Below, piece by piece: positions 12,057-31,100 of a stretch of DNA of 35,881 nt. A model generated the notes under the pieces. It saw only the letters and a program-made list of their open reading frames with translations, did no database searches and had not been told where the DNA came from. How positions within the stretch are numbered: the first letter of the stretch is position 1; every line of letters starts with the position of its first letter. This stretch comes from an uncultured Bacteroidales bacterium (GTDB lineage: Bacteria; Bacteroidota; Bacteroidia; Bacteroidales; Muribaculaceae), in NCBI GenBank assembly GCA_902776435.1, contig CACYQB010000024.1, positions 1-35,881 on the forward strand, in the 5' to 3' direction. A program made the position numbers and the translations under genes.

Positions 12057-12065
12057 CAGCGAGAT

Positions 12066-12256: not shown

Positions 12257-12278
12257 CGCGACATAGAAACCCGGAACA

Positions 12279-14363
12279 ATGCGTAAAACGTTAGTGACAT
12301 TCTGCTTGACCATCCTGTGCTTCCTGAGCGCCCATGCCCAGGAGGGCGTGCTTGCGCACCAGGCTGATTCGGTCATGGCCAGCGTGGGACACGGCAGGCT
12401 CGACTCAATGCAGTATATCCAGAATGTCATCATCTATGGCCGCCGCCCCTATGAGGACGTGATTCCTGCCCAGGAACTTACGGGGAAACAGCTGGAGGGC
12501 CTTAATAGCCATTCGGTGGCCGATGCCGTGCGCTACTTCGCGGGCGTTCAACTCAAGGATTATGGCGGTGTGGGAGGCCTCAAGACGGTCGATATCCGCT
12601 CGATGGGCACTAACCACATGGGTGTCTTCTATGACGGAATCCAGATCGGTAATGCCCAGAACGGGCAGGTGGACCTCGGCAAGTTCTCGCTTGACAATAT
12701 CGAGGCCATATCCCTATACAACGGCCAGCGCAGCAACATCTTCCAGAGCGCCAAGGACTATGGCTCGGCAGGCACTATTTACCTGCGTACCCGGCGCCCC
12801 AAGTTCAAGGATGGCAAGCGCGACAACCTTAACGTGTCGTTCAAAACGGGTTCCTTCGGCCTTGTCAATCCCAGCATCCGATGGGAGCACAAGTTGAGCC
12901 GCTCGATGAGCTTGTCGTTTAACAGCGAGTTCACCTATGCCACCGGCAAGTACCGGTTCCGCTACATGCGCCACTATAGCGACGGCTCATTGGCCTGGGA
13001 CACGACGGCAGTGCGGCAGAATGGTGACGTGCGGTCCTATCGCATCGAGGCGGCCGTCTTCGGTGTGATGTCCAGCGGTAAATGGCATGCCAAGGCCTAC
13101 TGGTACGACAGCAATAAGGGCATCCCCGGAGCCATTGTAAATAATGTGTGGAAACATGCCCAGCGGCAGTGGGATAGCAACTTCTTTGTACAGGGGGCTT
13201 ATCAGCGCAAGTTCACTGACCGCTATGAGATGATGTTCAACGCCAAGTATTCGCGTGACTACCTCCACTATCTCAACCCTGACACCACGTTGATGTACAT
13301 CGACAACAAGTTCTGGCAGGATGAGATTTACCTCTCCACAGCCAACAAATACACCATTCTCACCGACTGGGACGTGAACCTCTCGGTGGATTACCAGTGG
13401 AATAGCCTGGACGCCACCCTGACGGGCTTCGGCTACCCCATCCGTCACACGGTGCTCGCGGCATTGGCCTCGGCATGGACGTGGCACGGATTCAAGGCCC
13501 AGGGCAGTCTGCTGTACACGATGGCCAATGACCGCTCGTCGGCCCGCTTCGGCGACGTGGTGGTGGGCAAGCGTAGCGCCTATATGAACAAGGTTACCCC
13601 GGCAGTGTTTCTCAGTTGGCAACCTTGGCACGAGCGTGAGTTCAATCTGAGGGCCTACTACAAGCGCATTTTCCGTCTGCCCACGTTCAACGACCTCTAT
13701 TACACCGACATGGGCAACATCACGCTCAATCCTGAGTATGCCACCCAGTATAATGTGGGCTTCCTCTACCGTCTGCTCACTGACCGTGGCTTGCTTGCCG
13801 GAGTAAAACTCAGCGCCGATGCCTACTACAATTACATCACCGACAAAATCATTGCCGTCCCCAAGGGTACGGGCCAATACCGCTGGATGATGATGAATGT
13901 GGGCATTGTGAAAATTAGGGGTATCGACGTGAGCGCCCGCACGACTTTGCGCTTGCCCGCCGATGTGATCCTCGACATCAACTTGAGTTATACCTACCAG
14001 AAAGCCCAGGATTATACCAATCCCGCCGATAACGGGGACGGCGGCACCTACAAGGGGCAACTGGCCTATATCCCTTGGCACAGCGGCTCTGTCGTCGGCC
14101 ATCTGGGTTGGCGTGACCTGGATGTCAATTACAGTTTTATCTACGTCGGCGAGCGCTACCACACCAGCGCCAACACGCGTGAGAACCACGAGCAGCCCTG
14201 GTACACCCATGACCTCTCGGCAGGTTACCTCTTCCACTTGGGCAAGACGGCGTTGAAAGTCTCGGCCGAGGTCAACAACCTCTTCAACCAGTACTATGAC
14301 GTCATCCTTAACTATCCCATGCCGGGCCGCAACTACAAACTTATTCTCAAATTCGACATCTGA
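12279..14363 (+). CDS. btuB: TonB-dependent outer membrane vitamin B12 receptor, BtuB type
   Basis: 694 residues. The signal peptide ends at about AHA20. A TonB-box-like segment (VIIYG, about residues 50-54) precedes the plug domain (about 60-165), which includes DAVRYFAGVQLKDYGG, VDIRSMG and the typical VFYDGIQIGNAQNG. The remainder is a 22-strand barrel ending in the outer-membrane signature LILKFDI with an aromatic residue near the C-terminus. It lacks the N-terminal STN and carboxypeptidase-like extensions of SusC proteins, which fits a small-molecule receptor. The cobalamin riboswitch upstream and BtuG-like lipoprotein downstream make B12 or another corrinoid the likely substrate. Its TGA stop overlaps the next ATG by one base, suggesting translational coupling. 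Confidence 0.92.
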   Translation: MRKTLVTFCLTILCFLSAHAQEGVLAHQADSVMASVGHGRLDSMQYIQNVIIYGRRPYEDVIPAQELTGKQLEGLNSHSVADAVRYFAGVQLKDYGGVGGLKTVDIRSMGTNHMGVFYDGIQIGNAQNGQVDLGKFSLDNIEAISLYNGQRSNIFQSAKDYGSAGTIYLRTRRPKFKDGKRDNLNVSFKTGSFGLVNPSIRWEHKLSRSMSLSFNSEFTYATGKYRFRYMRHYSDGSLAWDTTAVRQNGDVRSYRIEAAVFGVMSSGKWHAKAYWYDSNKGIPGAIVNNVWKHAQRQWDSNFFVQGAYQRKFTDRYEMMFNAKYSRDYLHYLNPDTTLMYIDNKFWQDEIYLSTANKYTILTDWDVNLSVDYQWNSLDATLTGFGYPIRHTVLAALASAWTWHGFKAQGSLLYTMANDRSSARFGDVVVGKRSAYMNKVTPAVFLSWQPWHEREFNLRAYYKRIFRLPTFNDLYYTDMGNITLNPEYATQYNVGFLYRLLTDRGLLAGVKLSADAYYNYITDKIIAVPKGTGQYRWMMMNVGIVKIRGIDVSARTTLRLPADVILDINLSYTYQKAQDYTNPADNGDGGTYKGQLAYIPWHSGSVVGHLGWRDLDVNYSFIYVGERYHTSANTRENHEQPWYTHDLSAGYLFHLGKTALKVSAEVNNLFNQYYDVILNYPMPGRNYKLILKFDI

Positions 14364-15508
14364 TGAAAAGAGCTCTCTACATATTATTCGTCTTGTTATT
14401 GTCCCTGGTGTCGTGCCGTGAGGAGGTGACCATCTTCCTGCCCGAGCACGTGTCGGTGTCGCAGCCTGAATATACCGACATTGAGGGCTTCTACCTGTTG
14501 TGCGAGGGCAACATGGGGTGGAACAAGGCTACGCTCGACTATTATGACTATGCCGAGGGTGAGTACATCCGCAACATCTTCTCTTACGCCAATCCCACGG
14601 TGCCCAAGGAGATGGGTGATGTGGGCAACGACATCGGCATCTATGGCAGCAACCTGTACTGTGTCATCAATTGCTCTAACAAGGTTGACGTGCTTGACAA
14701 GTACACCTGCCGAAAGAAATATCAGATCGATATCCCCAACTGTCGTTACATCCGTTTCCACGAGGGTTATGCCTACGTCTCCAGCTATGCCGGCCCGGTC
14801 CAGATTAATCCCAATTACGAACAGCGTGGCTATGTGGCAAAGATTGACACTGTTACGATGCAGATTGTGGACACCTGCCTGGTAGGCTTCCAGCCCGACG
14901 AACTCGAGATAGTTGAGGGCAAAATCTATGTCACCAACTCGGGCGGCTACATGGTGCCCAATTACGAAAACACCGTCTCGGTCATTGACGTCGCGACCTT
15001 CAAGGAGGAGCGCCGCATCCCCATCGCCATCAACCTGTCGAGGGTAAAGGGCGACCGTCACGGCATGTTGTGGATTGCCTCGCGCGGTGACTACTATACC
15101 CGTCCGAGCAAGATTTACGCCTACGACACCCGCAAGAACCAACTCGTGGACAGTGTTGACTGTTACGTGAGCAACATGTGGCTGGACGGGGATTCGCTCT
15201 TCGTGGTGAGCGCCCAGTGGAGTTACGTGACGATGGGCAACACCTTTACCTATGCTATCATCAACACGCAGTCGCGACAGGTGGTGAACAACTGCTTCAT
15301 CAGCGACGGCACCGAGAAGGAGATTGTGATCCCCTATGGTATCGCGGTTAATCCGTTCACTAAGGACATTTACGTCACCGACGCCAAAGATTACGTCTCG
15401 CCCGGACGCCTCTATTGTTTCGACCGTTACGGCAACAAGAAGTGGGACGTGCGCACAGGTGATATACCCGCTCATTTCGCATTTTTGGGCCAAACCCATG
15501 ACTTTTAA
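14363..15508 (+). CDS. btuG: BtuG-like surface beta-propeller lipoprotein (corrinoid capture)
   Basis: 381 residues. The signal peptide has lipobox LVSC with the acylated cysteine at residue 18. The following REE is an acidic stretch resembling the Bacteroidetes lipoprotein export signal, so a cell-surface position is likely. The mature part has repeated blade-like units, for example KIYVTNSGGYMVPNYENTVSVIDVATF and GIAVNPFTKDIYVTDAKDY, typical of YncE/DUF5074 seven-bladed propellers. In Bacteroides, BtuG is such a protein: it caps BtuB and binds B12 very tightly. Assignment rests on fold, lipidation and direct overlap with btuB. Alternative: a propeller lipoprotein of other corrinoid-related function. 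Confidence 0.85.
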   Translation: MKRALYILFVLLLSLVSCREEVTIFLPEHVSVSQPEYTDIEGFYLLCEGNMGWNKATLDYYDYAEGEYIRNIFSYANPTVPKEMGDVGNDIGIYGSNLYCVINCSNKVDVLDKYTCRKKYQIDIPNCRYIRFHEGYAYVSSYAGPVQINPNYEQRGYVAKIDTVTMQIVDTCLVGFQPDELEIVEGKIYVTNSGGYMVPNYENTVSVIDVATFKEERRIPIAINLSRVKGDRHGMLWIASRGDYYTRPSKIYAYDTRKNQLVDSVDCYVSNMWLDGDSLFVVSAQWSYVTMGNTFTYAIINTQSRQVVNNCFISDGTEKEIVIPYGIAVNPFTKDIYVTDAKDYVSPGRLYCFDRYGNKKWDVRTGDIPAHFAFLGQTHDF

Positions 15509-15518
15509 TAAATTAAAG

Positions 15519-16733
15519 ATGATGAGAAAACAAGTTTTGATAGCAGTGGTGATGATGCTGACAGCCATCAGCGCCTTTGGAAACCACCCGTGGATTAGTC
15601 GGGTGTTTGAATACCGTCCTGCACCGGGACAGTTCGTCAATACCTTGCCTATCGCCAGGGTAGGGGAACCTGTGGACAGCGTCATGGCCCGTTGCCGGCA
15701 GAGCCTGTGTGGCCGCATCGATACCACGAGTGTGACCTTCCACGGCGAGACCTTCACCCGCATCGACACCGTCTGGGCTGGCGGTATGGTCACATTGGGC
15801 GGATATGGCGGCTATGTGACGTTCGCCTTCGACCATCCGGTGGTCAACATGCACACGTGGGACTTCGATATCCTGGGCAATGCCTTCTATAGCGACCAGA
15901 TGGTCTCTGGAGGCAGTTGTGAGCCAGGCATAGTGATTGTGGGCGTGGATATGGACGGTGACGGTGTGCCCAGCGATGGTGACAAGTGGTATGAGCTCGC
16001 TGGCAGTGAGTATAATCACCCCCAAACCCAACATGATTACCAGATTACCTACTATCGCCCTGACGAGGCTAAGCCCCGCACCCCCAGCACGACCGATCCG
16101 AGTCTGGTGGACACGACTTACATCCGCTGGACCAGTAACGATGTCAACCCTGACAGCGTCAGCGGTTACATGAGCCGCAACAGTTTCCACCCACAGCCCT
16201 ACTGGCCCCTGTGGCTTCAAGGCGAGGAGACCATGACCTTCTCGGGCACCAAGCTGCGTTGCAATGCGGAAGACATCGGCGGCGAGGGCGGCAATGCCTA
16301 TTTTGTGCAGTATTGTTTCCCTTGGGGCTATGCCGACAATCTGCCCAACAACCCCGATCATCTGCCAGCCATTGAGGGTTATAACCCGGGCTTCAAGATC
16401 GACTGGGCCGTGGACGAACTGGGCCGTCACGTCAACCTTACCCACATCGACTTCATCAAGGTCTATAATGCGATAAACCAGTATTGTGGCTGGATTGGCG
16501 AAACCTCGACCGAGGTGGCAGGGGCCGTGGACTTCCATCCCGATGTCGTACTCCCCGTGTTGCTGACGGGCGACGTCAATGGTGACGGCGAGGTCACCAT
16601 CAGCGACGTCAATGCCGTCATCGATGCTATCCTCATGGGAGAGGACACCCCGGCTGCCGACGTGAACTACGACGGCGAGGTCACCATTAGCGACGTCAAC
16701 ACCGTCATCGACCTCATCTTGAGCGGCAATTGA
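15519..16733 (+). CDS. Secreted B12-operon surface protein with dockerin-like tail
   Basis: 404 residues from ATG 15519; ATG 15522 is equally possible. A signal peptide ends near AFG/N, without a lipobox cysteine. The body (about 22-340) carries HPWISRVFEYRPAPGQFVNT, a glycine-rich LGGYGGYVTFAFDHPVVN and the acidic loop DMDGDGVPSDGDKWYE, which looks like a calcium-binding DxDxDG loop. Residues 351-404 are two dockerin-type repeats (GDVNGDGEVTISDVNAVID and a second copy). The same body forms the N-terminal half of the protein at 27509-30088, also under a cobalamin riboswitch, so a role in corrinoid capture is inferred. The biochemical function is unknown. It starts 10 bases after the btuG-like gene and ends the operon. 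Confidence 0.8.
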   Translation: MMRKQVLIAVVMMLTAISAFGNHPWISRVFEYRPAPGQFVNTLPIARVGEPVDSVMARCRQSLCGRIDTTSVTFHGETFTRIDTVWAGGMVTLGGYGGYVTFAFDHPVVNMHTWDFDILGNAFYSDQMVSGGSCEPGIVIVGVDMDGDGVPSDGDKWYELAGSEYNHPQTQHDYQITYYRPDEAKPRTPSTTDPSLVDTTYIRWTSNDVNPDSVSGYMSRNSFHPQPYWPLWLQGEETMTFSGTKLRCNAEDIGGEGGNAYFVQYCFPWGYADNLPNNPDHLPAIEGYNPGFKIDWAVDELGRHVNLTHIDFIKVYNAINQYCGWIGETSTEVAGAVDFHPDVVLPVLLTGDVNGDGEVTISDVNAVIDAILMGEDTPAADVNYDGEVTISDVNTVIDLILSGN

Positions 16734-17060: not shown

Positions 17061-17879
17061 ATGAAGAAAGTTAATCGTTTATTTGTTGCAGCGCTGATGG
17101 CGCTTGCTTCGTTATTGCCTGTTCAGGCCGAAGAAGTTGTTGTGGCCGATGGTCATCACTATTCTTCTCAGTTCCCTGTCGTGATGCGCTATTACAATCA
17201 GAACACCACTCACAACTTTGCCCAAATGATTTATCCTGCCTCAATGTTGAACGAACTCAACGGCAAGAAAATCATCAGCCTCAAGTTCTTTGTCAATGAA
17301 CCGTTCCAGAGAATTTATGGTGGTGATATCCAACTCTCTCTCAAGGTCGTAAATGAAGACGTCTTCCCCAATGTTGCTAATCCTTCCTTCACTGGCATGC
17401 AAGTCGTTGCCCATGGATCTCCCGTCAGAGGAGAGACGGAGCTCGTGTTCAATTTCACCGAGCCCTTTGAGTACAATGGCGGTAACCTGGCCGTTGAGGC
17501 ACGCGTGACCGAGAAGGGAGAATCCCATCCTGACGGCATCGAAGAGTTTATTGGGATGTACATCTTAGATGAGTATGGCTATTATGGCCTTGATGTTTGC
17601 TACTGCTTCGTCCAACTCAACAACGTCACGCTTTATAGTGAAAGAGGGTTCATGCTGCCCAAGGCTGCCTTTGGCATCGCCGAGGATGCTCCCCAGTACG
17701 ACCTTGGTGACGTGGACCATGATGGCAAGGTGACCATCGCCGATGTGACCGCCCTGATTGACTATCTGTTGAGTGGTGAAGAAGCACCTGCCGAAGCCAA
17801 CGTTGACGGCGACCAGAATGTTTCTATCTCTGATGTGACTGCCCTCATCGACATGCTCCTGGGTGGCACTAACAACTGA
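17061..17879 (+). CDS. Secreted protein, paralogous domain plus dockerin-like tail
   Basis: 272 residues; I do not recognise a named family for the main domain. The signal peptide ends near VQA/EE. The domain (about 24-210) has the motifs QMIYPASMLNELNGKKIISLKFFV, GGDIQLSLKVV and FEYNGGNLAVEARVTE and looks all-beta. The same motifs recur once or twice in the next two genes. Residues 216-270 form two dockerin-type calcium-binding repeats (GDVDHDGKVTIADVTALID and NVDGDQNVSISDVTALID). No transmembrane anchor or lipobox is present. It is 56 bases from the next gene with no terminator between, so the two are likely cotranscribed. An adhesin or carbohydrate-binding role is possible but not shown. 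Confidence 0.75.
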   Translation: MKKVNRLFVAALMALASLLPVQAEEVVVADGHHYSSQFPVVMRYYNQNTTHNFAQMIYPASMLNELNGKKIISLKFFVNEPFQRIYGGDIQLSLKVVNEDVFPNVANPSFTGMQVVAHGSPVRGETELVFNFTEPFEYNGGNLAVEARVTEKGESHPDGIEEFIGMYILDEYGYYGLDVCYCFVQLNNVTLYSERGFMLPKAAFGIAEDAPQYDLGDVDHDGKVTIADVTALIDYLLSGEEAPAEANVDGDQNVSISDVTALIDMLLGGTNN

Positions 17880-17935
17880 TTCCTTCTAGCATATTATTCG
17901 TTTTATTAATAACCTTTTTTAAACTATTTTTTTTC

Positions 17936-19510
17936 ATGAAAAAAATGTCTAAATTGTTTGCAGCTGCACTGATGTCTCTGGCTGCTTTTGGCTCTGCTCA
18001 GACCATGGATCTGACTGTTTTTGACGGAACCGAAACAAGTAGATTGGAACCCATTAACATTTATTACTATGATTACTCTAATAATCATAGTCAGGTGATT
18101 TTCCCTGAGTCTGCTCTGACTGAAATGGTCGGATGTGAGATTAATTCGCTTAAGTTCTATCTTGACCGTAACATCAGTGTGACTAAGGATGGTGTTCTCC
18201 AGATCTCTTTGGGCGTTACCGAGCAAGACCGTTATACCTCAAGCGCATACCTTACTGAAGGTTTGACCGTGGTTACTAATTATACTATCCCTGATGGCGT
18301 TAGTGAGTTGGAGATCACTTTTGATCAGCCCTTCATGTACAATGGTGGCAATCTGGTCTTTGACTGTAATACGGTGGTTGCAGGTAATGAGATTACGGGT
18401 TATTTCTATGGTGTTAATCCTTACTATAACTCAGCTATTTCTCGTGATGTTCTGCACCAGTTCTTGCCCAAGACCACTTTTGATTACACGCCTCAAGAAT
18501 ATAAGGCCGCAGTAATTCCCAATGAGGTTAACTTTGGCGCCGTAAGTAAGGGTAACGTAGTGAACCAGGAAGTAACGCTCAAGAATGCTGGTCGCAATGC
18601 CTTCACCCCGACCTTTGGCACGATTGCAGCTCCCTTCAGCATCAATGCTCAGCCTGTTGAGTTGGCTTCTGGCGAATCGATGACTTTCTCTGTAACCTTC
18701 GATGCCGCCAATGCCGGAACCTATGCCGAGAGCTTCACCATTGACTGTGGTGCCGCTGGCACGATTACCGTTCCCGTGGCTGCTTCCTGCGTTACCGAGG
18801 TTCTTGTAGCTGATGGTACTGATAAGAACGCCTATGTTCCTGTAATTGTTTTGAGCTATGATGCGACTGGTCTCAATTATACTCAGATGATCTATCCTGC
18901 CAGCATGCTGACTGCCTTGAATGGCAAGAAGATCAATAGCCTTACGTTCTACACTGATGCTCCCATGACCAAGATCTCTGGCGGTAAGATTCAGTTGTCT
19001 CTTAAGGAGGTTGACTTTACCGCATTTGTTGATGATCAGGTGAATGACATGACCGTTGTGGCCGAGGTGACTCCCGCCTTTAATGGTGATGAAATGCTGC
19101 TGACCTTTGACACTCCCTTCGAGTACAATGGTGGCAACCTGGCCGTTGAGGTTAATGTGACCGAGCCTGGTGAATATGACTATTATGGTACTGGTAGCTA
19201 CTTTATGGGTCAGATAATGGACGAATATGTATCGTTCTATTGGGATTCATACTGGGGAAGTGGTTATCAGAGTGATTTCTTGCCCAAGGCTACCTTCGGT
19301 TACGTGGATGAGGTAGCTCCTCAGCCCGAGTGGGAGATTGGTGACGTGAACCACGATGGCAAGGTTGCAATTAATGATGTTACCGCTCTGATCGACTATC
19401 TGTTGGGTGACACTTCAAGTGCTCCCGCCGAGGCCAACGTGAATGGTGACAGCGTTATTACTATCGCTGACGTGACCGCTCTGATCGATAAGTTGCTCGC
19501 TGGCAATTGA
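17936..19510 (+). CDS. Secreted protein with two paralogous domains, Ig-like linker and dockerin-like tail
   Basis: 524 residues. The signal peptide ends near GSAQ. Module 1 (about 25-185) and module 2 (about 286-465) are copies of the domain in the 17061 gene. Module 2 is closest to it, sharing QMIYPASML, LNGKKI and FEYNGGNLAVEVNVTE. They are separated by a beta-sandwich of about 95 residues (192-285, VNFGAVSKGNVVNQEVTLKN...SGESMTFSVTFD), typical of ASH/DUF1573-like Ig folds. Residues 469-523 are two dockerin-type repeats. The second module and tail look like a duplication of the upstream gene. Function unknown; an extracellular binding role is inferred. Confidence 0.75.
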   Translation: MKKMSKLFAAALMSLAAFGSAQTMDLTVFDGTETSRLEPINIYYYDYSNNHSQVIFPESALTEMVGCEINSLKFYLDRNISVTKDGVLQISLGVTEQDRYTSSAYLTEGLTVVTNYTIPDGVSELEITFDQPFMYNGGNLVFDCNTVVAGNEITGYFYGVNPYYNSAISRDVLHQFLPKTTFDYTPQEYKAAVIPNEVNFGAVSKGNVVNQEVTLKNAGRNAFTPTFGTIAAPFSINAQPVELASGESMTFSVTFDAANAGTYAESFTIDCGAAGTITVPVAASCVTEVLVADGTDKNAYVPVIVLSYDATGLNYTQMIYPASMLTALNGKKINSLTFYTDAPMTKISGGKIQLSLKEVDFTAFVDDQVNDMTVVAEVTPAFNGDEMLLTFDTPFEYNGGNLAVEVNVTEPGEYDYYGTGSYFMGQIMDEYVSFYWDSYWGSGYQSDFLPKATFGYVDEVAPQPEWEIGDVNHDGKVAINDVTALIDYLLGDTSSAPAEANVNGDSVITIADVTALIDKLLAGN

Positions 19511-21733: not shown

Positions 21734-23941
21734 ATGATTCAGACCGTACTGAAGCGTGATGGCCGCGTCGTCGGCTATAATGAGGAAAAAATTAAGGCCG
21801 CAATACGCAAGGCGATGCTCGCCACCGATGCCGGTGAGGACGAGAGCCTGATTCAGCGCATTGCTGACCGCATTGGCTCGCGTGGTCGCAGCCAGATGAG
21901 CGTCGAGGACATCCAGGACCAGGTGGAACTGGAGCTGATGAAGAGCCCCCGCAAGGAGGTCGCCCGATGCTATATCAATTACCGCCAGAAACGCAGTGTG
22001 GCGCGCAAGGCCAAAACGCGCGACCTGTTTCTGGAAATCATCAATGCCAAGAACAACGATGTCACCCGTGAGAACGCCAATATGAATGCCGACACACCCG
22101 CCGGCATGATGATGAAGTTCGCCAGCGAGACCACCAAGCCCTTTGTCGATGATTACCTCTTGAGCGAGGAGGCGCGCGAAGCCGTGCGCGGTAACTACCT
22201 GCACATCCACGATAAGGACTACTATCCCACCAAGAGCCTCACCTGTGTCCAGCACCCGCTCGACAAGGTGCTCAAGCAGGGATATATGGCAGGCCATGGT
22301 GAGTCCCGTCCCGCCAAGCGCATCGAGACTGCCGGCGTCATCGCCTGCATCACCATGGAGACCGCGCAGAACGAGATGCATGGCGGACAGGCCATCCCTG
22401 CATTTGACTTTTATCTGGCTCCCTATGTGCGCCGAACCTTCATCGAGGAAGTGAAAAACCTGGAGACCTTGATGGGCCAGGATTACAGCCGGCTCTATGA
22501 CGTCAAACTGGAAGATTACAACGAGCGTGAACTGGATTTCCTGCAGGGAGATGAACGTATCCTGCAACACGCCATCAACAAGACTGTGCGTCGTGTCCAT
22601 CAGGCCATGGAAGCTTTTATCCATAACATGAACACCATCCACTCGCGTGGTGGCAACCAGGTGGTATTCAGCTCCATCAACTACGGTACGGACACCAGCG
22701 CCGAGGGACGCTGCATCATCCGTGAGTTACTCAATTCGACCTATCGCGGTGTGGGCAACGGTTCTACCGCTATCTTCCCCATCCAGATCTGGAAGAAGAA
22801 AACGGGCGTGAGCTACAAGCCCGGCGACCCCAACTACGACTTGTATCAGCTCGCTTGCAAGGTGACAGCAAGGCGTTTCTTCCCCAACTTCGTCAACCTC
22901 GACGCCACCTACAATTACCATGAGCAGTGGCGCCCCGATGATCCCGAACGTTATAAACACGAGGTGGCGACGATGGGTTGCCGTACCCGCGTGTTCGAGA
23001 ACCGCTTTGGCGAAAAGACGTCTATCGGCCGTGGTAACCTCTCATTCTCAACCATCAACATTGTGCGTCTGGCTATCGAGTGCATGGACATTAAGAGCCA
23101 GCAGGAGCGCATCGACCGCTTCTTTGCCAAGCTAGACAACATGCTGGAAGTCACGGCCCGTCAGCTTGATGCCCGCTACCAGTACCAGAAGACCGCCATG
23201 GCCAAACAGTTCCCCCTGCTCATGTCGCAGTTGTGGAACGGTGCCAGTGAGCTTTCTCCCGACGACAAGGTCGAGAGCGTCATCAACCAGGGAACGCTTG
23301 GCATCGGGTTCATCGGATTGGCCGAGTGTCTGATTGCCCTCACTGGACATCATCATGGCGAGAGCGACGAGGCGCAGCAACTGGGCTTGAAGATTGTGAC
23401 CTACATGCGTGACCGCGTCAACGAGTTCAGCGAGCGCTATCAGCACAACTACAGCGTCCTGGCAACACCCGCCGAGGGTCTGGCCGGCAAGTTTACCCGT
23501 CGCGACCGCAAGGACTTCGGCGAAATTCCCGGAGTGACCGACAAGATCTATTATACCAATAGCAACCACGTGCCTGTCTATTACAAGTGCTCACCCAAAC
23601 ACAAGGCCGAGGTCGAGGCGCCATATCACGAGCTGACTCGTGGTGGCCACATCTTCTATGTCGAGATTGACGGTGACGCTACCCATAACCCCGAGGCCAT
23701 CTCCTATGTCGTGGACCTCATGGACAAGTACAACATCGGTTACTGCTCGGTGAACCACAACCGCAACCGCTGCATGGACTGCGGCTACGAGGATGCTACC
23801 GAGGACCTGCATGAATGCCCCGAGTGCCACGGACACAACATCGACCGTCTGCAGCGCATTACCGGCTACCTCGTCGGCACCACCGACCGCTGGAACAGCG
23901 GCAAACTTGCAGAACTCAAGGACCGCGTAGTTCACAAGTGA
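21734..23941 (+). CDS. nrdD: Anaerobic (class III) ribonucleoside-triphosphate reductase
   Basis: 735 residues. An N-terminal ATP-cone (about 1-95, VLKRDGRVVGYNEEKIKAAIRKAM) gives allosteric control by ATP/dATP. The catalytic barrel includes THE segments HIHDKDYYPTKSLTC, TMETAQNEMHGGQA and RGGNQVVFSSINYG. The C-terminal zinc site is C680, C683, C695 and C698. The glycyl-radical motif is RITGYLVGTTDRW, with G711 aligning to E. coli G681. The enzyme reduces NTPs to dNTPs without oxygen and needs NrdG to form the radical. nrdG lies downstream across a 79-base repeat. It does not need B12, unlike class II reductases. Confidence 0.97.
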   Translation: MIQTVLKRDGRVVGYNEEKIKAAIRKAMLATDAGEDESLIQRIADRIGSRGRSQMSVEDIQDQVELELMKSPRKEVARCYINYRQKRSVARKAKTRDLFLEIINAKNNDVTRENANMNADTPAGMMMKFASETTKPFVDDYLLSEEAREAVRGNYLHIHDKDYYPTKSLTCVQHPLDKVLKQGYMAGHGESRPAKRIETAGVIACITMETAQNEMHGGQAIPAFDFYLAPYVRRTFIEEVKNLETLMGQDYSRLYDVKLEDYNERELDFLQGDERILQHAINKTVRRVHQAMEAFIHNMNTIHSRGGNQVVFSSINYGTDTSAEGRCIIRELLNSTYRGVGNGSTAIFPIQIWKKKTGVSYKPGDPNYDLYQLACKVTARRFFPNFVNLDATYNYHEQWRPDDPERYKHEVATMGCRTRVFENRFGEKTSIGRGNLSFSTINIVRLAIECMDIKSQQERIDRFFAKLDNMLEVTARQLDARYQYQKTAMAKQFPLLMSQLWNGASELSPDDKVESVINQGTLGIGFIGLAECLIALTGHHHGESDEAQQLGLKIVTYMRDRVNEFSERYQHNYSVLATPAEGLAGKFTRRDRKDFGEIPGVTDKIYYTNSNHVPVYYKCSPKHKAEVEAPYHELTRGGHIFYVEIDGDATHNPEAISYVVDLMDKYNIGYCSVNHNRNRCMDCGYEDATEDLHECPECHGHNIDRLQRITGYLVGTTDRWNSGKLAELKDRVVHK

Positions 23942-24020
23942 TTTTAGGCTTTAGGTGCTAGGTTTTAGGCTTTAGGAGGGCTGACACCTAACACCTAATG
24001 CCTAACACCTAACGCCTAAA
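23942..24020 (+). repeat. TTAGG-type repeats forming a long hairpin between nrdD and nrdG
   Basis: Left arm 23942-23976 consists of tandem TTTTAGGC, TTTAGGTG, CTAGG and TTTTAGGC units. Right arm 23986-24020 has the complementary ACCTAAC, ACCTAATG and CCTAAC units. The arms pair almost fully over about 35 bases around a 9-base loop. The right arm abuts the nrdG ATG, so the structure could limit nrdG translation or act as an RNA processing or partial termination site. Confidence 0.8.
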
Positions 24021-24512
24021 ATGCTCCGCATTTTACACATCGTCGAGGGCACCAGTGTCGATGGACCGGGCCTGCGCACGTCAATTTACATGGCGGGCTG
24101 CAACCATCATTGCCCTGGTTGCCACAATCCCGCCTCGTGGAACCCGCTGGGCGGTGAAGAACGCACCCTCGACGAACTGATGCAGGTCATAGCCTATAAT
24201 GAGGCTCCCGTCACACTGAGTGGCGGGGACCCATTGCAGCAGCCTGCAGGCACACGCGCCCTTATCCAACGCATCAAGCGGGAGCTGGGTTACAACGTGT
24301 GGTGTTATACGGGCTACACCTGGGAGGAAATTGTGGCTAGCCCCGTTTTGCTCGACGTCGTCCGCGAACTCGATGTGCTGGTTGACGGCCCATTTATCAT
24401 GGCCGAGCGCGACATCACCCTTCGGTTCCGCGGCTCACGCAACCAGCGCCTCATCGACGTCCAGCGCACCCTGGATACCGAACAGCTCACCCTCTGGTCA
24501 CCTGCTTTTTGA
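24021..24512 (+). CDS. nrdG: Anaerobic ribonucleotide reductase activating protein (radical SAM)
   Basis: 163 residues. The 4Fe-4S cluster motif CNHHCPGC supplies C27, C31 and C34 (CX3CX2C). The start MLRILHIVEGTSVDGPGLRT and the segments VTLSGGDPLQQP and VWCYTGYTWEE are typical of NrdG and related activases. It uses S-adenosylmethionine to create the glycyl radical on NrdD (G711). Length is normal. ATG 24021 lies immediately after the repeat hairpin and there is no alternative upstream start that leaves the repeat untranslated. Confidence 0.96.
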   Translation: MLRILHIVEGTSVDGPGLRTSIYMAGCNHHCPGCHNPASWNPLGGEERTLDELMQVIAYNEAPVTLSGGDPLQQPAGTRALIQRIKRELGYNVWCYTGYTWEEIVASPVLLDVVRELDVLVDGPFIMAERDITLRFRGSRNQRLIDVQRTLDTEQLTLWSPAF

Positions 24513-24621: not shown

Positions 24622-24666
24622 CACTTGAGTGTAATCTCAATATTAACAAGACCTTAAAACTTGAAA

Positions 24667-26970
24667 ATGATTGAATCTATGAGAATGAAAGCATTACTGG
24701 CAGTGTTGATGGGATGCATGGCAATGATTGGTCCCATCATGGCGAATCCCATCACCTGGGAGCAGGCGCAGCATAATGCGCAGGCCTTTCTGCAGCAGCG
24801 CGGCATGCGCAGTGCGGCCCCCTTGTTACGTCTTGCCCCGATGCCTTCATCCGCATCCTGCTATATCTTCAACATCGGAGACGATGAGGGCTACGTCATC
24901 ACTGCTTCCGATGACTGTATTTCCCCTATCTTGGGCTATTCCTATGAAGGCTCAATTGACGTAAACAACATTCCGGACAACATGCAATGGTGGCTCGACG
25001 AGTATGCCCGTCAGATTCAGTTCATGCGCGATAATGGCCTGTCAGCGCCCCGCTCACCCAGGAGGTCTCCCGCTCAGTCCGCTGTCGCCCCGATGTTGAC
25101 AACCCACTGGAATCAGACGCGCCCCTATAACCAATCTTGTCCGATTGACACCAATGGAGAGCAATGTATGACAGGCTGTGTGGCAACAGCGATGGCCCAG
25201 GTGCTCTATTACCATCATGCTCGCTCAGTGACACAGACTACTCACGAGATGTCGGCCTATGTTACTAAGCGCGGAGTGAATGTTAGTGCGATTCCCGCTG
25301 GCTCGTTCATTGATTGGGACAACATGGTTGAAAAGTATGGCCGAAACATAGAAACCACCCCTGAACAGGATGCAGCTGTAGCCAATCTGATGAGGTATTG
25401 CGGCTCTTCCATCCACATGAATTATACGTCGGGTTCGTCAGGTGCCGCAACCGCTCACGTGGCTCCTGCCATGATTGCCTATTTCAATTACACTTCCCGG
25501 ACTAAAGCCATGAGCCGAAATGATTGTGGCCTGTCTGATGACGAGTGGGAAGACATGATTTATAATGAACTGAGCAACTCGCGCCCTGTCTTGTATAGCG
25601 GGTTCACTAAAAATAACACCGGTCATGCCTTTGTCTGCGATGGTTATGATGGCGAGGGCTTCTTCCACATCAACATGGGGTGGGGTGACAATGGTACCTA
25701 TTACCGCTTAACAGCCATAGATTCCGCCGGTACGTCACTCATGTCCTTTAGATATTCCCAGGAAGCCATCATTAATGCCGAACCTAGGGCTGTCATGCCG
25801 TCCTATGACGAAGGCATCCAGTTCGCTGACCCCATAACCAGGGCTTTGTGCCTGGCCGCTGCCGATGATGATGACGACGGCATAGTAACGATGGAAGAGG
25901 CCGCGGCTGTCACGGACATGGGACCCTACAGGTGGTTATGGATGTCTTCATTCGATGAGTTCAAGTACTTTACCGGGGTGACCTCCCTCAGTAAGTCGAT
26001 ATTCTATACTTGTGAAGAACTGGAAAGTTTTGTCCTGCACGATGCTGTCACGTCCATTGGGGAAAACGCTTTCAATAACTGCTATAGCCTCAAGGAGATT
26101 TCCATCCCCTGCTCTGTCACCAGTATTGGCCGAAATGCGTTTTTGGGCTGCAGTAGCATGAAAAAGTTCTCCTGGAATGCCAAGAATTGCCTCCCGGCTG
26201 TTGGTGGCATAATTCCCTCAGCGGTAGAGTACTTGTTGATAGGGGATAGCGTCACAGTGATACCCAGCAGTTTTGCCAAGAACACAAGAATACAAAGGCT
26301 GACCCTCGGCAAGAACGTCACCAAGATTGCTTCCTATGCTTTCTATAAATGTAATAGATTGAAGCGGGTGGTGATTCCTGACTCCGTGAGCTCCATCGCT
26401 CAGTGGGCCTTCTTTGAGGATACGGCCTTGGAGGAGGTAATCCTCGGCAACGGCCTCACTGAAATCGGCGACCGGGCCTTCGACATGTGCAGTGGCCTCA
26501 AGTCCATCACCATCCCCAACTCTGTCACAAAAATCGGCATGTATGCGTTTTACAAGTGTACCGAGTTGAGGAGTGTGGTCATCGGTAATTCCGTCGCAAG
26601 CATGAGCAGCAATGTCTTCAATGGGTGCGATAGCCTCAAGATGGTCACGTGCCTTGTCCCTGAGCCTCTTACGATCAATGTCAACGTGTTCAATAACCTT
26701 TATGACCAGGCCGTTCTCCGTGTGCCCGCTCATGCCCTCGAGGCCTATCAGGAGGCCTATCCTTGGAACCGGTTCTCACAGATCATAGCCATCGACCCTG
26801 CCGCGGGCGATGTGAATCTGGACGGCGTGACAGGCATTGACGATGTCACCGCGTTGATCGATCAGATTCTGAAAGACAACACCACCGACTTCGGTGACGT
26901 GAACACCGACGGCAGCGTCAACATCGAGGACGTCACCGCCCTCATCGACAAGTTGCTGAACAATAAATAA
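24667..26970 (+). CDS. Secreted C10-family (streptopain-like) cysteine peptidase with EF-hand, BspA-like LRRs and dockerin-like tail
   Basis: 767 residues from ATG 24667; ATGs at 24679 and 24685 are also possible. A signal peptide (cleavage near IMA/NP) is followed by a C10 propeptide-like region with a YVITASDD motif. The catalytic core has C171 (GCVATAMAQ) as nucleophile and H320 (GHAFVCDGYD), then GWGDNG, which fits streptopain-type proteases. An EF-hand-type loop, DDDDDGIVTMEE, lies at about 400-411. Leucine-rich repeats of the BspA/LRR_5 kind span about 440-690 (SVTSIGRNAFLGCSSMKK and similar). Two dockerin-type repeats occupy 714-765. The order suggests a secreted protease that also binds host or glycan surfaces. 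Its substrate is unknown. Confidence 0.88.
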   Translation: MIESMRMKALLAVLMGCMAMIGPIMANPITWEQAQHNAQAFLQQRGMRSAAPLLRLAPMPSSASCYIFNIGDDEGYVITASDDCISPILGYSYEGSIDVNNIPDNMQWWLDEYARQIQFMRDNGLSAPRSPRRSPAQSAVAPMLTTHWNQTRPYNQSCPIDTNGEQCMTGCVATAMAQVLYYHHARSVTQTTHEMSAYVTKRGVNVSAIPAGSFIDWDNMVEKYGRNIETTPEQDAAVANLMRYCGSSIHMNYTSGSSGAATAHVAPAMIAYFNYTSRTKAMSRNDCGLSDDEWEDMIYNELSNSRPVLYSGFTKNNTGHAFVCDGYDGEGFFHINMGWGDNGTYYRLTAIDSAGTSLMSFRYSQEAIINAEPRAVMPSYDEGIQFADPITRALCLAAADDDDDGIVTMEEAAAVTDMGPYRWLWMSSFDEFKYFTGVTSLSKSIFYTCEELESFVLHDAVTSIGENAFNNCYSLKEISIPCSVTSIGRNAFLGCSSMKKFSWNAKNCLPAVGGIIPSAVEYLLIGDSVTVIPSSFAKNTRIQRLTLGKNVTKIASYAFYKCNRLKRVVIPDSVSSIAQWAFFEDTALEEVILGNGLTEIGDRAFDMCSGLKSITIPNSVTKIGMYAFYKCTELRSVVIGNSVASMSSNVFNGCDSLKMVTCLVPEPLTINVNVFNNLYDQAVLRVPAHALEAYQEAYPWNRFSQIIAIDPAAGDVNLDGVTGIDDVTALIDQILKDNTTDFGDVNTDGSVNIEDVTALIDKLLNNK

Positions 26971-27119: not shown

Positions 27120-27127
27120 CAATACAA

Positions 27128-27332
27128 ATTGAACGTGTTGAGGTTTCTTCCACTATGATGGTGAGGAATCAAAAGGGAACCAGGTGCAATTCCTGGACAG
27201 TACCCGCTGCTGTAACTCCCTGGCAACACATCGCGCGGCACGCATGCCACTGGTTGCAAACGTTCACCTGTCTGCATCATCACCGGGAAGGCGCCACAGC
27301 GATGGGGGAGAAGTCAGAAGACCTGCCTCCAC
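27128..27332 (+). promoter_or_regulatory. Cobalamin riboswitch 2
   Basis: The elements occur in the canonical order: AAAAGGGAA (27171-27179), stem P5 CCAGG (27180-27184) with CCTGG (27192-27196) and loop UGCAAUU, GACAG, the core CCCGCTGCTGTAA, and the B12 box AAGTCAGAAGACCTGCC at 27311-27327. It is a second adenosylcobalamin-type element, 15 kb from the first, and has a longer variable arm and a longer distance to the start codon (about 180 bases). It controls the gene at 27509 and probably the one at 30123. Confidence 0.95.
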
Positions 27333-27338
27333 ACGGCC

Positions 27339-27381
27339 AATTAGGGGATGTCTTGGACGTCAAGACAACCTCTTAATTGTG
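27339..27381 (+). promoter_or_regulatory. Hairpin and possible kissing partner in the leader of riboswitch 2
   Basis: AATTA-GGGGATGTCTTG (from 27339) pairs with CAAGACAACCTCTTAATT (27361-27378) around loop GACGT. AAUUGUG at 27375-27381 is complementary to loop UGCAAUU of P5 (27185-27191): five Watson-Crick pairs plus two G-U pairs. The two pairings overlap, as expected for a switch. No T run follows the hairpin. The rest of the leader, 27382-27508, shows no other clear element. Confidence 0.55.
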
Positions 27382-27508: not shown

Positions 27509-30088
27509 ATGAAACGTGACATGAAGAAATTTTTACTACATTCGTTGATAGCTGTGTTGGCGATAACGGCAAGCGCCGCCAACTCGCCCTACATTGCCCG
27601 TGTGTATGACTATCTTCCGGCACCCGGTCAGTTTATCAATACAGTGACATCGGCCTATAAGCCGGGATTTACCCGTGACAGTGTCATGGCTTATCTTGAG
27701 ACCCAGCTGTGTGGAACGACTACCGGCGGTGTGACTTTGGGTAGCTATGGCGGCTATATCATCTTCGGCTTCGACCACCCCGTGGTCAACAAGCACGACT
27801 ATGACGTGAAAATCTATGGTAACGCCATGCAGAGCAATGCCGTTCCCGATGTGCTGGGCGGCAGTTGTGAGCCTGGCATTATCATGGTGGGCGTGGATGA
27901 GGACCATAACGGTATCCCCAGCGCCGGCGACAAGTGGTATGAAATCAAGGGCGCTGACTATGACCGCTGTGTTCATGGTTTTGAGGTGACTTACTATAAA
28001 CCTGATGAAGAAAAAGAACGTGTGCCTCATGCAAGCTGGCGGTTTATCAATGATATCGAGTATGTCCATTGGACGACCAACGACGCTGACCTTGCCGAGG
28101 GCTACGTGTGGCGCAATACCTTCCACAACCAGTCCTACTGGCCCGCATGGATTGAGGATGAGGTGCTTACATTCCGTGGGACGCGTCTGCCCAACGCCTC
28201 GATGGACATGAGCGGAGGAAACGGAAACAATTGGTTCCAGCCGTTCTTTGGCGAGGGCTATGCCGATAACATGCCCAATGCCATGGAGCCGGGCTTCAAG
28301 ATTGACTGGGCCATTGACGAGGAGGGCAACCCTGTCATGCTTGACCATATTGATTTTGTCAAGGTCTATTGCGCTCAACTTGACTACTGCGGATGGCTTG
28401 GCGAGGTATCCACCGAAGTCTGTGGCGCCGAGGACCTGCACCCCGATGCCGAAGGTGATGACCCCGGTCCTGGCCCCGGCGATTACTCTTTTACCAATGG
28501 CATTATCTTTGTCAATGAGGACTTCTACGGTCACAATCAGGGCTCGCTGAATTTCTACAACTATGACTACGGCGAGATGGAATACAATGTTGATGCCGTT
28601 GTCAATCCAGAGTCTCAGCTGGGCGTCACAACCCAGTATGGACAGCTCTTCGGCGGTAAGTTGTTCCTTGTCAGCAAGCAGGCAAACTACAACGAGTCCA
28701 CAGATGCCACCACAGGCTCTCGTTTGGCAGTGATGGATGCCGTGACGCTCAAGCAGCAGGGCAGTTTGATGCGTTTCGATGAATCGACGGGCAACGTCTA
28801 TGACGGTCGCAGCTATTGCGCCGTGAATAACGATAAGGGCTATGTGGCCACCAGTGGCGGCATCTTCGTCTTGGACGTGCCCTCGATGACCATTACAGGC
28901 ATGATTGAAGGCACACAGTCCAGTAGTGCTCAGGGAACACTATACAATGGGCAGTGCGGCGACATGGTGCGCTTCGGCCAGTATGTGTTTGCCGTGCAGC
29001 AAGGTGTTGGTCTTCATGTGATTGACCCTGTTGCCGATCGGGTTGTGACCACGATACCGTTCCCCAACATCGTCACCGTGTTCGTGACGGCAGGGGGCAA
29101 CCTGTATGTGGCCAACAATTCTCGTGAAATATATGATTACAGTACAGGCCCCTATGAGGCAGACTTCACATGCATCGATCCTGTCACGTTCGAGGTGAAG
29201 AATGTCTATCAACTTGGCGATACCGATGGCGCGTTGAGTTCATGGGGTGCATGGAAGGCCCGCATGCTATGTGTCGATCCCGTTGCCGAGAAGGTCTATT
29301 ATTATCACAGCGAGTACCAGAACTATATCAGTTGCTATGATTTTGAAACACAGCGCTTCACTGACCATTTGATCGACTTGCCCGAGGCCGTCGAGATCAA
29401 TTGGGATGGCACCCGCAATCACCAGGGACTCTATGCGTCAGCATTGAGTTTTGACCCCCACACGGGTGACCTCATAGTACAGACCACCGAGGCGGCGCCC
29501 ATGTATGCCTATCAGATTCTTAACCACAACTGGGTGCTTTTCTATGATGCCAATACGCTGGAACTCAAGAAACAGCTGCGTCTGCAGGATGCTTATTGGT
29601 TCCCTGCTATGGCTGTTTATCCTGACGTCTGTGACCCCGAGGTGATTATTGGCGAGCAGGTTATCGCGCAGGGCGAGACTCGTACCATCTCGTTGCTTGA
29701 CGCCGTCCGTGACGCAGACAATATGCCTGCCCTGGCCGTCTCTACTGCGGTGAGTGGCAATGCGTCAGTCGTGCAGGCAAGTGTGAAGGGCCTGATGTTG
29801 GAGCTCACTGGCGTGGCTCTTGGCAGGACGCAAGTCACTGTCACCACCGACAGCAATGGCAAATTGGCGACTACCACTTTCACCGTGACCGTGACGGGGT
29901 CGTCTAAGCCTGGTGACGTGAACATGGACGGAAAGGTGTCGATCGACGACGTGACCGATCTCATCGACATCCTGCTGGGCTCGGTGCTCACGGTATATGA
30001 CATGAACGCGGCCGACGTGGATCGTGACGGCAAAATCACGATTGCGGATGTTACCGCGCTCATTGACATGTTGTTAAGCGGACATTAA
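27509..30088 (+). CDS. Fusion: B12-operon surface domain, BtuG-like propeller, Ig-like domain and dockerin-like tail
   Basis: 859 residues from ATG 27509; ATG 27521 is also possible. The signal peptide ends near ASA/AN with no lipobox. Residues about 26-315 match the body of the 15519 gene (APGQFINT, LGSYGGYIIFGFDHPVVN, EDHNGIPSAGDKWYE, PGFKIDWAIDEEGN). A PGPGPGD linker leads to about 330-710, a YncE/DUF5074-like propeller that resembles the BtuG-like protein (GSLNFYNYD here, ATLDYYDY there). Residues 712-795 are Ig-like and 802-859 carry two dockerin-type repeats. The gene thus joins the products of two separate genes of the btuB operon and is itself under a cobalamin riboswitch. Corrinoid capture is the inferred role; binding is untested. 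Confidence 0.85.
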   Translation: MKRDMKKFLLHSLIAVLAITASAANSPYIARVYDYLPAPGQFINTVTSAYKPGFTRDSVMAYLETQLCGTTTGGVTLGSYGGYIIFGFDHPVVNKHDYDVKIYGNAMQSNAVPDVLGGSCEPGIIMVGVDEDHNGIPSAGDKWYEIKGADYDRCVHGFEVTYYKPDEEKERVPHASWRFINDIEYVHWTTNDADLAEGYVWRNTFHNQSYWPAWIEDEVLTFRGTRLPNASMDMSGGNGNNWFQPFFGEGYADNMPNAMEPGFKIDWAIDEEGNPVMLDHIDFVKVYCAQLDYCGWLGEVSTEVCGAEDLHPDAEGDDPGPGPGDYSFTNGIIFVNEDFYGHNQGSLNFYNYDYGEMEYNVDAVVNPESQLGVTTQYGQLFGGKLFLVSKQANYNESTDATTGSRLAVMDAVTLKQQGSLMRFDESTGNVYDGRSYCAVNNDKGYVATSGGIFVLDVPSMTITGMIEGTQSSSAQGTLYNGQCGDMVRFGQYVFAVQQGVGLHVIDPVADRVVTTIPFPNIVTVFVTAGGNLYVANNSREIYDYSTGPYEADFTCIDPVTFEVKNVYQLGDTDGALSSWGAWKARMLCVDPVAEKVYYYHSEYQNYISCYDFETQRFTDHLIDLPEAVEINWDGTRNHQGLYASALSFDPHTGDLIVQTTEAAPMYAYQILNHNWVLFYDANTLELKKQLRLQDAYWFPAMAVYPDVCDPEVIIGEQVIAQGETRTISLLDAVRDADNMPALAVSTAVSGNASVVQASVKGLMLELTGVALGRTQVTVTTDSNGKLATTTFTVTVTGSSKPGDVNMDGKVSIDDVTDLIDILLGSVLTVYDMNAADVDRDGKITIADVTALIDMLLSGH

Positions 30089-30122
30089 TTCATTGTTTAA
30101 CTATATAAAAACTGTAATGACT

Positions 30123-31100
30123 ATGAAGAAAATCTTTACTTTAGTATCTAGCGCTCTGATGGCTTCGGCCGTATGGGCAGGTGTGATTACGCTCGACATG
30201 AACAGCCCTATCAATCCTGCATCGCTTGAGTTCAACCAGTATGGTGTGTGGACTCAGTGCTACAACGATGTGGACTACACTTGGCTGGAGTTTGGCGACA
30301 ACCATGGTGAATTCTTGCTTTCTCACCTCATCGATGGTGAGGGCGCTTCGTGGGGTGGCTACTATTGGGACGGCTTCTGCCCCGCCATCGGTGGCGACAT
30401 CACTGACTATGGACAACCCGGAGCAGGGGGCACTTGGACTGTCAACTATGGTGGTTGCATGGCCGGCGGTGGTTGTGTCATCGATGCCGACGGTTCGGTT
30501 TCGGCTGATCCCGACCAGCCATACTTTGTGGCTTACTACAGCGACTGGGCAATGGAAGGCCCCAGCAATCAGGTAAGGTTCATGGATAAGGACGGCTACA
30601 TGATTTTCAAGCCTGCTGGTGTGTATGTCAGCAACCATCCCTGGGCTTATTACCACTGCCTGAATGGTGACTATGGTTCAACTCCGTTCGAGGAGGGTGA
30701 CTACTTTGAACTCACTGCTGTGGGCGTTTCGGCCGACCGCACTGAGACTTCGGTAAGCATGAAGCTGGCTGAGTTTGTGAATGGTGAGTTCCATGCTGTT
30801 ACCGATTGGACCTACTTTGACCTGTCCAGCCTGGGCGAGGTTGAGTCGGTTTACTTCACCATGACATCGACCAAGTTCAATGCCTATGGCGTGGCTACCC
30901 CCTTGTATTTCTGCATGGATAAGTTCCAGGTGAAGGTTCAGCCCACTTCGGTAGAGAGCATTGATGCCGATAAGCAGGTGGCTGGCGTGAAGTATGTCAA
31001 CCTGTCGGGTATGACCAGCAACACCCCGTTTGATGGCCTGAACATCGTGGTGACATCCTATACTGACGGCACCACCGCCACCACCAAGGTGATGAAATAA
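30123..31100 (+). CDS. Secreted DUF4465-like protein with type IX-like C-terminal tail
   Basis: 325 residues from ATG 30123; ATG 30117 is also in frame. The signal peptide ends near VWA/G. The body is an aromatic-rich beta-sandwich with WGGYYWDGFCPA, GCMAGGGCV and SVYFTMTSTKFNAYGVATPLYFCMDKF, which I read as the DUF4465 family. The last 40 residues end in FDGLNIVVTSYTDGTTATTKVMK, the short tail common on secreted Bacteroidetes proteins and resembling a type A sorting domain. Only 34 bases separate it from the fusion gene and no terminator intervenes, so it is probably B12-regulated too. DUF4465-like proteins may include BtuH-type B12 binders, but that link is tentative. Confidence 0.7.
   Translation: MKKIFTLVSSALMASAVWAGVITLDMNSPINPASLEFNQYGVWTQCYNDVDYTWLEFGDNHGEFLLSHLIDGEGASWGGYYWDGFCPAIGGDITDYGQPGAGGTWTVNYGGCMAGGGCVIDADGSVSADPDQPYFVAYYSDWAMEGPSNQVRFMDKDGYMIFKPAGVYVSNHPWAYYHCLNGDYGSTPFEEGDYFELTAVGVSADRTETSVSMKLAEFVNGEFHAVTDWTYFDLSSLGEVESVYFTMTSTKFNAYGVATPLYFCMDKFQVKVQPTSVESIDADKQVAGVKYVNLSGMTSNTPFDGLNIVVTSYTDGTTATTKVMK

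Follow-up and report, generated by a model that had tools for sequence, protein, structure and literature searches.

The gene at positions 27509–30088 of the forward strand of a 35,881-nucleotide stretch of DNA from an uncultured Bacteroidales bacterium of the Muribaculaceae (GenBank assembly GCA_902776435.1, contig CACYQB010000024.1; the whole stretch is called the window here) encodes, in a single frame of 859 codons, a BtuH domain, a DUF5074 β-propeller, an Ig-like stretch and a dockerin, in that order, behind a cobalamin riboswitch of its own. We consider it probable, at roughly two chances in three, that the product is a secreted two-domain cobamide-capture protein, created by a fusion at the level of the genus, which bears a dockerin in place of a lipid anchor or a tail resembling those of the type IX secretion system (T9SS), and which acts beside the neighboring BtuJ to feed BtuB–BtuG. 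Both building blocks belong to known families; their pairing, their order and the docking tail appear to be new. In the literature covered (titles, abstract openings and parts of four papers), a BtuH–DUF5074 fusion with a dockerin was not found, and in their abstract openings the papers retrieved on dockerins together with type IX secretion do not mention B12.

A preliminary description of the window had proposed this succession of domains, and the domain matches confirm it, if weakly for the Ig-like stretch. The riboswitch, the second in the window, lies at 27124–27344 (+; RF00174, cmscan 104.1 bits, E 3.2e-25, gathering score 31.5). Then come a type I signal peptide at 27509–27577 (+), read directly as MKKFLLHSLIAVLAITASA with its start at either 27509 or 27521; the BtuH (cobamide-binding) domain at 27578–28444 (+; residues 24–312); a Pro/Gly-rich linker at 28445–28495 (+), which forms the joint of the fusion and has counterparts in the other fusions of the clade around the window; the propeller at 28496–29623 (+; residues 330–705; PF16819, E 2.2e-75); the Ig-like stretch at 29633–29893 (+; residues 709–795; Big_2, E 0.33), found in fused and split relatives of the window clade alike; and the dockerin type I tail at 29909–30076 (+; residues 801–856; PF00404 Dockerin_1, E 1.4e-7, 32 bits against a cut-off of 22.9). 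This dockerin scores 37.3 bits in the whole-genome search, and both of its calcium loops, at residues 803 and 836, are intact. The first cysteine of the protein is residue 68, which leaves no room for a lipobox, and the protein is thus unlipidated, as the preliminary description had held; a C-terminal T9SS sorting tail is also absent, the chain ending in the dockerin. The arrangement is conserved: 20 further fusion loci were scanned, and all 20 have the riboswitch ahead of the fused gene (21 of 21 with the window). The riboswitch also stands upstream of all four split gene pairs that were scanned and of a distant fusion at locus L122, both taken up below.

By homology, the N-terminal domain is identified as BtuH. 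Searched as a single sequence, residues 24–311 match the BtuH chains 8blw_B (its residues 391–660, E 1.3e-63) and 7biz_A (E 1e-35), and a profile search gives E values of 1e-88 and 3e-63, respectively. 7BIZ is BtuH2 (BT_1956) of Bacteroides thetaiotaomicron, a protein that uses this domain to bind B12 and has a role in gut fitness (PMC8941943; this and the other papers are cited here from portions of their text), and 8BLW is BtuG1, a fusion of a BtuG propeller with a BtuH domain (PMC10404256). The view that this was an uncharacterized surface domain is thus rejected; the homology proposed at the same time, with the protein encoded at 15519–16733, holds at 57% identity. Of the six polar contacts named for BtuH2 (PMC8941943), five are identical in the fusion (Gln333/Gln41, Asn399/Asn105, His476/His206, Trp511/Trp242 and Trp577/Trp296), and of the hydrophobic contacts Leu578 is kept and Phe401 has become Met. 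Across 85 sequences aligned with BtuH2, a set that includes the fusion and the 15519 protein, the Gln and Asn contacts occur in 85, the His in 84 and Trp577 in 78. The sixth polar contact, Tyr510, is replaced by Asn241 in the fusion, which counts against the reading as a capture protein. The fusion also lacks the lipoprotein signal of BtuH2, but a lipobox was not found in most of the BtuH homologues examined, and we therefore do not treat it as a hallmark of the family. The homology and the retained contacts speak for the role in corrinoid capture that had been suggested.

The propeller had been taken for the counterpart of the BtuG encoded at 14363–15508, and here the analysis arrives at a different assignment. 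In a single-sequence search of the Protein Data Bank (PDB), the fused propeller matches one chain at E ≤ 10, 9s6c (E 3e-11), and a profile built from 26 propellers of this kind reaches 9s6c at E 3e-36 and BtuG-like chains at about 5e-12; similarity to BtuG is thus seen at the profile level, and the failure to align with BtuG/YncE folds that would have refuted the preliminary description did not occur. We built two propeller profiles, K and G. Of the 160 proteins that match either, 72 favor G, with K scores of at most 37.9, and 88 favor K, with G scores of at most 29.5. The fusion scores 514 with K and 26 with G, and open reading frame (ORF) 14363–15508 scores 627 with G and 13 with K. Because the two families do not mix, the fused propeller is a distant cousin of BtuG, and its identification as BtuG was rejected on these scores and on the PDB ranking; it also has no lipobox and no adjoining btuB. 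It belongs to a separate DUF5074 family, probably BtuK-like, to which 9S6C is the nearest solved chain. The label K-type is used because, in B. thetaiotaomicron, the genes of BtuK1 and BtuK2 (BT_1486/1487) adjoin btuH1, as the DUF5074 propeller adjoins btuH here. The two BtuK proteins stand alone, unlike the fused propeller, and the likeness rests on gene position and on 9S6C as the nearest chain; that 9s6c or DUF5074 equals BtuK would be an extrapolation from this analogy. A search of 393 genomes at E ≤ 1e-40, aimed at the identity of 9s6c, gave no match. Of two reported genomic clusters of DUF4465 genes, the larger has a DUF5074 protein next to 40% of them (PMC13398666). K-type propellers also occur within proteins of about 1700–2100 residues close to btuB–btuG–btuH (L123, L130, L131, L135 and L137; L numbers denote loci).

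It is possible, if on the unlikely side, that the propeller binds no B12 at all and serves instead as a spacer, as a face on which BtuG or BtuJ docks, or in a vesicle-related role such as that proposed for BtuL. BtuK2 and BtuL bound no cobalamin (PMC12751083), the similarity to BtuG is distant, and the one paper found for DUF5074 is, judged by its title, about something else. Oppositely, BtuK1 does bind B12 (PMC12751083), and in the scanned loci, fused and split alike, the propeller keeps its cobalamin riboswitch and its neighbors BtuH and BtuJ. We retain the reading of the propeller as a putative second cobamide-binding or hand-over domain.

The origin of the fusion can be followed in sister genomes. 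The BtuH–propeller region is matched in 310 of the 397 family genomes searched. Among the genomes of the window's genus, at least 84 in number, 20 (that of the window included) carry the full fusion in a single frame and 13 carry the two halves as adjoining separate places; one further genome, G331, has a distant fusion of 37% identity, and the remaining same-genus genomes match more weakly or not at all. Ten split loci were inspected (L028–L037); in them the first gene encodes a signal peptide, BtuH and a dockerin, and the second a signal peptide, the propeller, the Ig-like stretch and a dockerin, and in these loci and in L065 the spacing between the genes is −13 to +16 bases. As the split pairs carry two signal peptides and two dockerins, the fused form lacks one of each. 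These comparisons indicate that the fusion arose from two adjacent genes within the genus of the window.

The number of such events was examined on a 49-row tree, which requires four changes between fused and split states; the topology tests used a quickly built tree in which several branches are long. A single origin of all BtuH–propeller fusions was rejected (22 fused rows held together, p-AU 1.5e-5), and the fusion at L122, on a long branch, seems to be a second, separate one. Holding together the 21 fusions of the window clade was rejected only weakly (p-AU 0.02), a result that traces to the sister relationship of the fused L061 and the split L065. The Pro/Gly-rich linkers are alike across the window-clade fusions, and this similarity favors one fusion event plus exchange or recombination in that clade. 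In a wider survey, 80 loci were named as the best of at least 574 relatives, which include goat, sheep, water-buffalo, deer and other uncultured Bacteroidales; one locus, L111, is incomplete. The common order is btuB–btuG–btuH, often followed by a K-type propeller or BtuJ, and BtuH–propeller fusions occur in five loci (L060, L061, L063, L066 and L122). The distant fusion at L122 (9591–12113, on a contig shared with L040) is 37% identical and ends in a T9SS-like tail where the window protein has its dockerin. Two other loci hold different arrangements: L107 (4401–6926, Candidatus Symbiothrix) has an 841-residue fusion of BtuH with BtuJ (DUF4465), the only one among the best 80 loci, and L128 (8118 onwards, on a contig shared with L059) encodes, next to btuB–btuG–btuH–K, a protein of 1060 residues that contains a second BtuH domain.

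We next consider the C-terminal tails. The T9SS-like tail is defined here by our own profile, made from BtuJ C-termini, and the T9SS label rests on this profile together with the presence in the genome of SprA, the component looked for (SprA_N, 619 bits). At E ≤ 1 the Pfam sorting tail PF18962 does not match the window's BtuJ, and genome-wide it matches 4 places versus 26 for our profile. Lipoboxes were called by a pattern expression with start codons chosen by rule, in a strict version that replaced a looser one. Of 81 complete BtuH proteins from the best 80 loci, a dockerin terminates 37 and a T9SS-like tail 27, and the other 17 have neither. Six of the 81 are lipidated by the strict rule, all of them without a tail, and none clearly pairs a lipobox with a tail, the tailed protein of L116 being ambiguous for the lipobox. 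Of the 17 tail-less proteins, five more are lipidated by eye if another start is taken (L128, L130, L135, L137 and L139), another three score marginally for a tail (L070, L100 and L129), and the remaining three were assigned to no class (the first copy in L102, L126 and L133). Among the rows listed, the looser expression had flagged five BtuH proteins that carry a dockerin or tail flag (L074, L077, L078, L114 and L116) plus L119; of these flags the strict version retains only L116, as ambiguous.

Other families at these loci divide differently. K-type propellers (42) have 33 T9SS-like tails, 8 dockerins and 1 lipobox; BtuJ proteins (29) have 27 T9SS-like tails and 1 dockerin, with 1 having neither; and BtuG proteins (63) have no tail, with 48 lipoboxes, 3 ambiguous cases and 12 that have none by rule. 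The BtuJ with a dockerin, at L061 (12562–14145), carries it in place of the T9SS-like tail of its relatives. Because the L122 fusion ends in a T9SS-like tail and the window fusion in a dockerin, and because tail types vary among homologues, the tail is exchangeable, and on this comparison the dockerin is seen to occupy the position of the anchor or export tag in other lineages.

The idea that a dockerin tail is peculiar to B12 proteins was rejected, since the genome holds at least 150 dockerin matches (the best 150 of 281 candidates were scored). Dockerin counts were made in 22 of the 50 genomes of the cohesin survey, with the best 150 candidates scored in each at E ≤ 1e-6. Genomes with a dockerin-type BtuH had 48–144 dockerins in 10 of 10 tested; six genomes of the T9SS-like type (with L100 assigned on its marginal tail score) had none; and six with a lipobox-type BtuH, three of them so classed by rule and three by eye, had 0, 2, 1, 0, 0 and 0. 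Twenty dockerin proteins were sampled from the best 150 of the window's genome; 16 end in the dockerin and 4 extend past the fetched stretch, and two matches to the lipobox expression resemble plain signal peptides.

Possible cohesin partners of these dockerins were also sought. The Pfam cohesin model has three matches in the genome, two of which exceed the cut-off, in proteins that by eye contain leucine-rich repeats together with cohesin-like domains and a dockerin. At least three frames, on contigs C14, C16 and C4, combine cohesin-like domains, a dockerin and a T9SS-like tail. Contigs C14, C16 and C17 (L052, L053 and L054) hold possible scaffolds or adaptors, including proteins of about 220 residues composed of a signal peptide, a cohesin-like domain and a dockerin. 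Our own cohesin-like profile, A8, was built from ten domains of this genome and finds 18 places in it; at least two A8 matches occur in 11 of 11 dockerin-rich genomes, versus any match in 2 of 12 others (p 7e-5). With the Pfam model at E ≤ 1e-3, matches occur in 13 of 22 dockerin-type and 5 of 28 other genomes (p 0.004). Several results weigh on the other side. Eight of the 11 A8-positive genomes are that of the window and those of L060–L066, without which the contrast is 3/3 versus 2/12 (p 0.02); the best PDB match of A8 (E 0.2) is by name not a cohesin; Pfam matches over the cut-off are found in 7/22 versus 5/28 genomes (Fisher p 0.32); and 9 of the 22 dockerin-type genomes have no Pfam cohesin match at all. 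All of these statistics treat genomes as independent of kinship. With the Pfam and A8 enrichments so mixed, tethering of the fusion by cohesins is no more than possible.

A broader proposal can be framed on the same data, and we regard it as doubtful. In it, the B12 catchers of this rumen and gut Bacteroidales lineage (BtuH, the BtuH–propeller fusion and a 2060-residue protein with a BtuJ domain) would form a surface array held by cohesin–dockerin contacts, the cohesin scaffolds would be placed on the surface through type IX secretion, and more than 100 secreted proteins would now have the dockerin as their general surface tag, in the role once filled by lipid anchor and T9SS-like tail. If true, this would be a cellulosome-like assembly serving a vitamin.

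The dockerin might alternatively be irrelevant to retention, with the fusion released to the medium or to vesicles as a diffusible B12 trap. The missing lipobox fits such a protein, as does the terminal position of the dockerin in the sampled proteins, none of which has a convincing lipobox, and so do the dockerin-type genomes that lack a Pfam cohesin. In addition, BtuH2 of B. thetaiotaomicron appears in both membrane and supernatant fractions (PMC8941943), and vesicle-borne BtuJ serves as a source of B12 (PMC12751083). On the other hand, the cohesin-like domains found with A8 in all 11 dockerin-rich genomes argue for dockerin partners, and the relatives of the fusion bear lipoboxes or T9SS-like tails. 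On balance, a released trap seems rather unlikely. Retention in the periplasm, where the fusion would buffer cobamides, is distinctly less likely. A type I signal peptide and a terminal dockerin without a T9SS-like tail would suit it, and periplasmic targeting signals have been described for non-lipidated DUF4465 members (PMC13398666), but homologues of both BtuH and the propeller carry lipoboxes or T9SS-like tails elsewhere, and the distant fusion at L122 itself ends in such a tail. Least likely of all is a lid of the BtuGH type, with the propeller capping BtuB as that of BtuG1 does, for although the same two kinds of domain are joined in BtuG1 and the propeller shows the profile similarity to BtuG given above, the order is reversed, the propeller is of another family, there is no lipobox, no btuB lies between the second riboswitch and the end of btuJ, and in operon 1, where btuB lies 13 kb upstream, BtuB is already paired with a lipidated BtuG.

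We therefore favor a secreted, surface-held capture protein, and its action may be pictured as follows. First, scarcity of B12 would, as the riboswitch family suggests, permit expression of the operon. Second, the fusion would leave the cytoplasm through Sec and go on to the outer surface, where the dockerin most likely keeps it, substituting for a lipid anchor or T9SS-like tail. Third, the BtuH domain would bind the corrin ring and nucleotide loop of a cobamide, with the propeller as a possible second site or point of transfer. Finally, acting alongside BtuJ, the fusion would hand cobamides to the BtuB–BtuG pair of operon 1 for import. We infer B12 binding (by the propeller especially), surface location and hand-over. 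In a published model, BtuJ captures the vitamin and passes it to BtuH and then to BtuBG (PMC12751083), and the gene set here fits that model. Two further points weigh against our proposal. The fusion has neither a lipobox nor a T9SS-like tail with which to cross the outer membrane, and in B. thetaiotaomicron no robust co-purification of BtuH2 with BtuG2 was seen (PMC8941943), so that direct hand-over is unproven even there.

The other genes of the pathway lie on both sides. Operon 1 opens with a riboswitch at 12050–12269 (+; RF00174, 87.5 bits, lower than the second) and continues with a BtuB-like TonB-dependent transporter at 12279–14363 (+; TIGR01779, E 4.9e-32, under the equivalog cut-off; Plug domain), the BtuG at 14363–15508 (+; lipobox LVSC, read directly; G domain of 8blw, E 1e-35, with matches to other BtuG-like solved chains as well) and a stand-alone BtuH at 15519–16733 (+; 8blw_B, E 1.5e-55), which has a dockerin (Dockerin_1, E 6.8e-9) and no lipobox. 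Directly 3' of the fusion is a BtuJ-like DUF4465 protein at 30117–31100 (+; PF14717, E 6.2e-31; matches to 4jqr, 9qpm and 9fct), its ORF being listed from a TTG at 30093, with a T9SS-like tail at 30942–31097 (+) that is recognized by our own profile only; btuJ has this position in 30 of 30 loci (L008–L037, window included).

Between the two B12 operons lie two dockerin-tailed secreted proteins of unassigned role (17061–19510, that at 17936–19510 with a choice-of-anchor D-like domain), an anaerobic ribonucleotide reductase with its radical SAM activase (21734–24512) and, just 5' of the second riboswitch, a C10-family peptidase with a Spi-type inhibitor domain and BspA-type leucine-rich repeats (24661–26970), whose end is dockerin-like but below the Pfam cut-off. 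The genome holds two further cobalamin riboswitches. That on contig C33 (12150–12348; L046) precedes a TonB-dependent receptor, a CbiK-like cobalt chelatase and a second TonB-dependent receptor. The other belongs to a locus on contig C10 (82161–88857; L045:6162–12858), where it precedes the 2060-residue protein mentioned above, which has three BNR_assoc_N stretches, DUF4465 (BtuJ) and a dockerin and is another candidate for a dockerin-tailed B12-binding protein.

Several known systems bear comparison. BtuG1 (BT_1490), since renamed BtuGH, is likewise a natural fusion of propeller and BtuH in a riboswitch locus, and its two halves each bind cobalamin separately (PMC12751083). A fusion of these two kinds of domain is thus already in print, with the parts in the opposite order, and joint action of the parts, which the preliminary description had drawn from the fusion, had been concluded for BtuGH before (PMC12751083). 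BtuGH is lipidated, runs from propeller to BtuH, has a true BtuG propeller and works in complex with BtuB, whereas the window protein runs from BtuH to a DUF5074 propeller, without a lipobox and with a dockerin tail. BtuH2 shares the B12-binding domain and most of the named contacts but has N-terminal PKD domains and a lipid anchor, and neither propeller nor dockerin. BtuJ is a published B12 binder of another fold, adjacent to the fusion and outside it. The cellulosomal dockerin type I has the same duplicated calcium-loop module at the C-terminus, with cohesin-like domains in the same genome, but here the host is a Gram-negative gut bacterium, the cargo is a B12-binding protein, and the dockerin is known from sequence alone. 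Other fusions of BtuH with a propeller, a search for which had been suggested, include those of further same-genus genomes, L122 and BtuGH. The new elements are the K-type partner, the reversal of the order, the record of fusion at the genus level and the exchange of anchors; the fusion is real and conserved in part of the genus, but it is an extension of known parts.

In general, these observations present BtuH as a mobile B12-binding module, whose partners are BtuG in B. thetaiotaomicron, the DUF5074 propeller here and DUF4465 in a relative recorded as Candidatus Symbiothrix. Its union with such varied partners points to direct hand-over between catchers. Further, the exchange of anchors offers a testable account of how Bacteroidales that bear type IX secretion might, with no lipid anchors, retain their B12 catchers on the outside of the cell; this question does not arise in the cited portions of the B. 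thetaiotaomicron work, where the proteins are lipoproteins.

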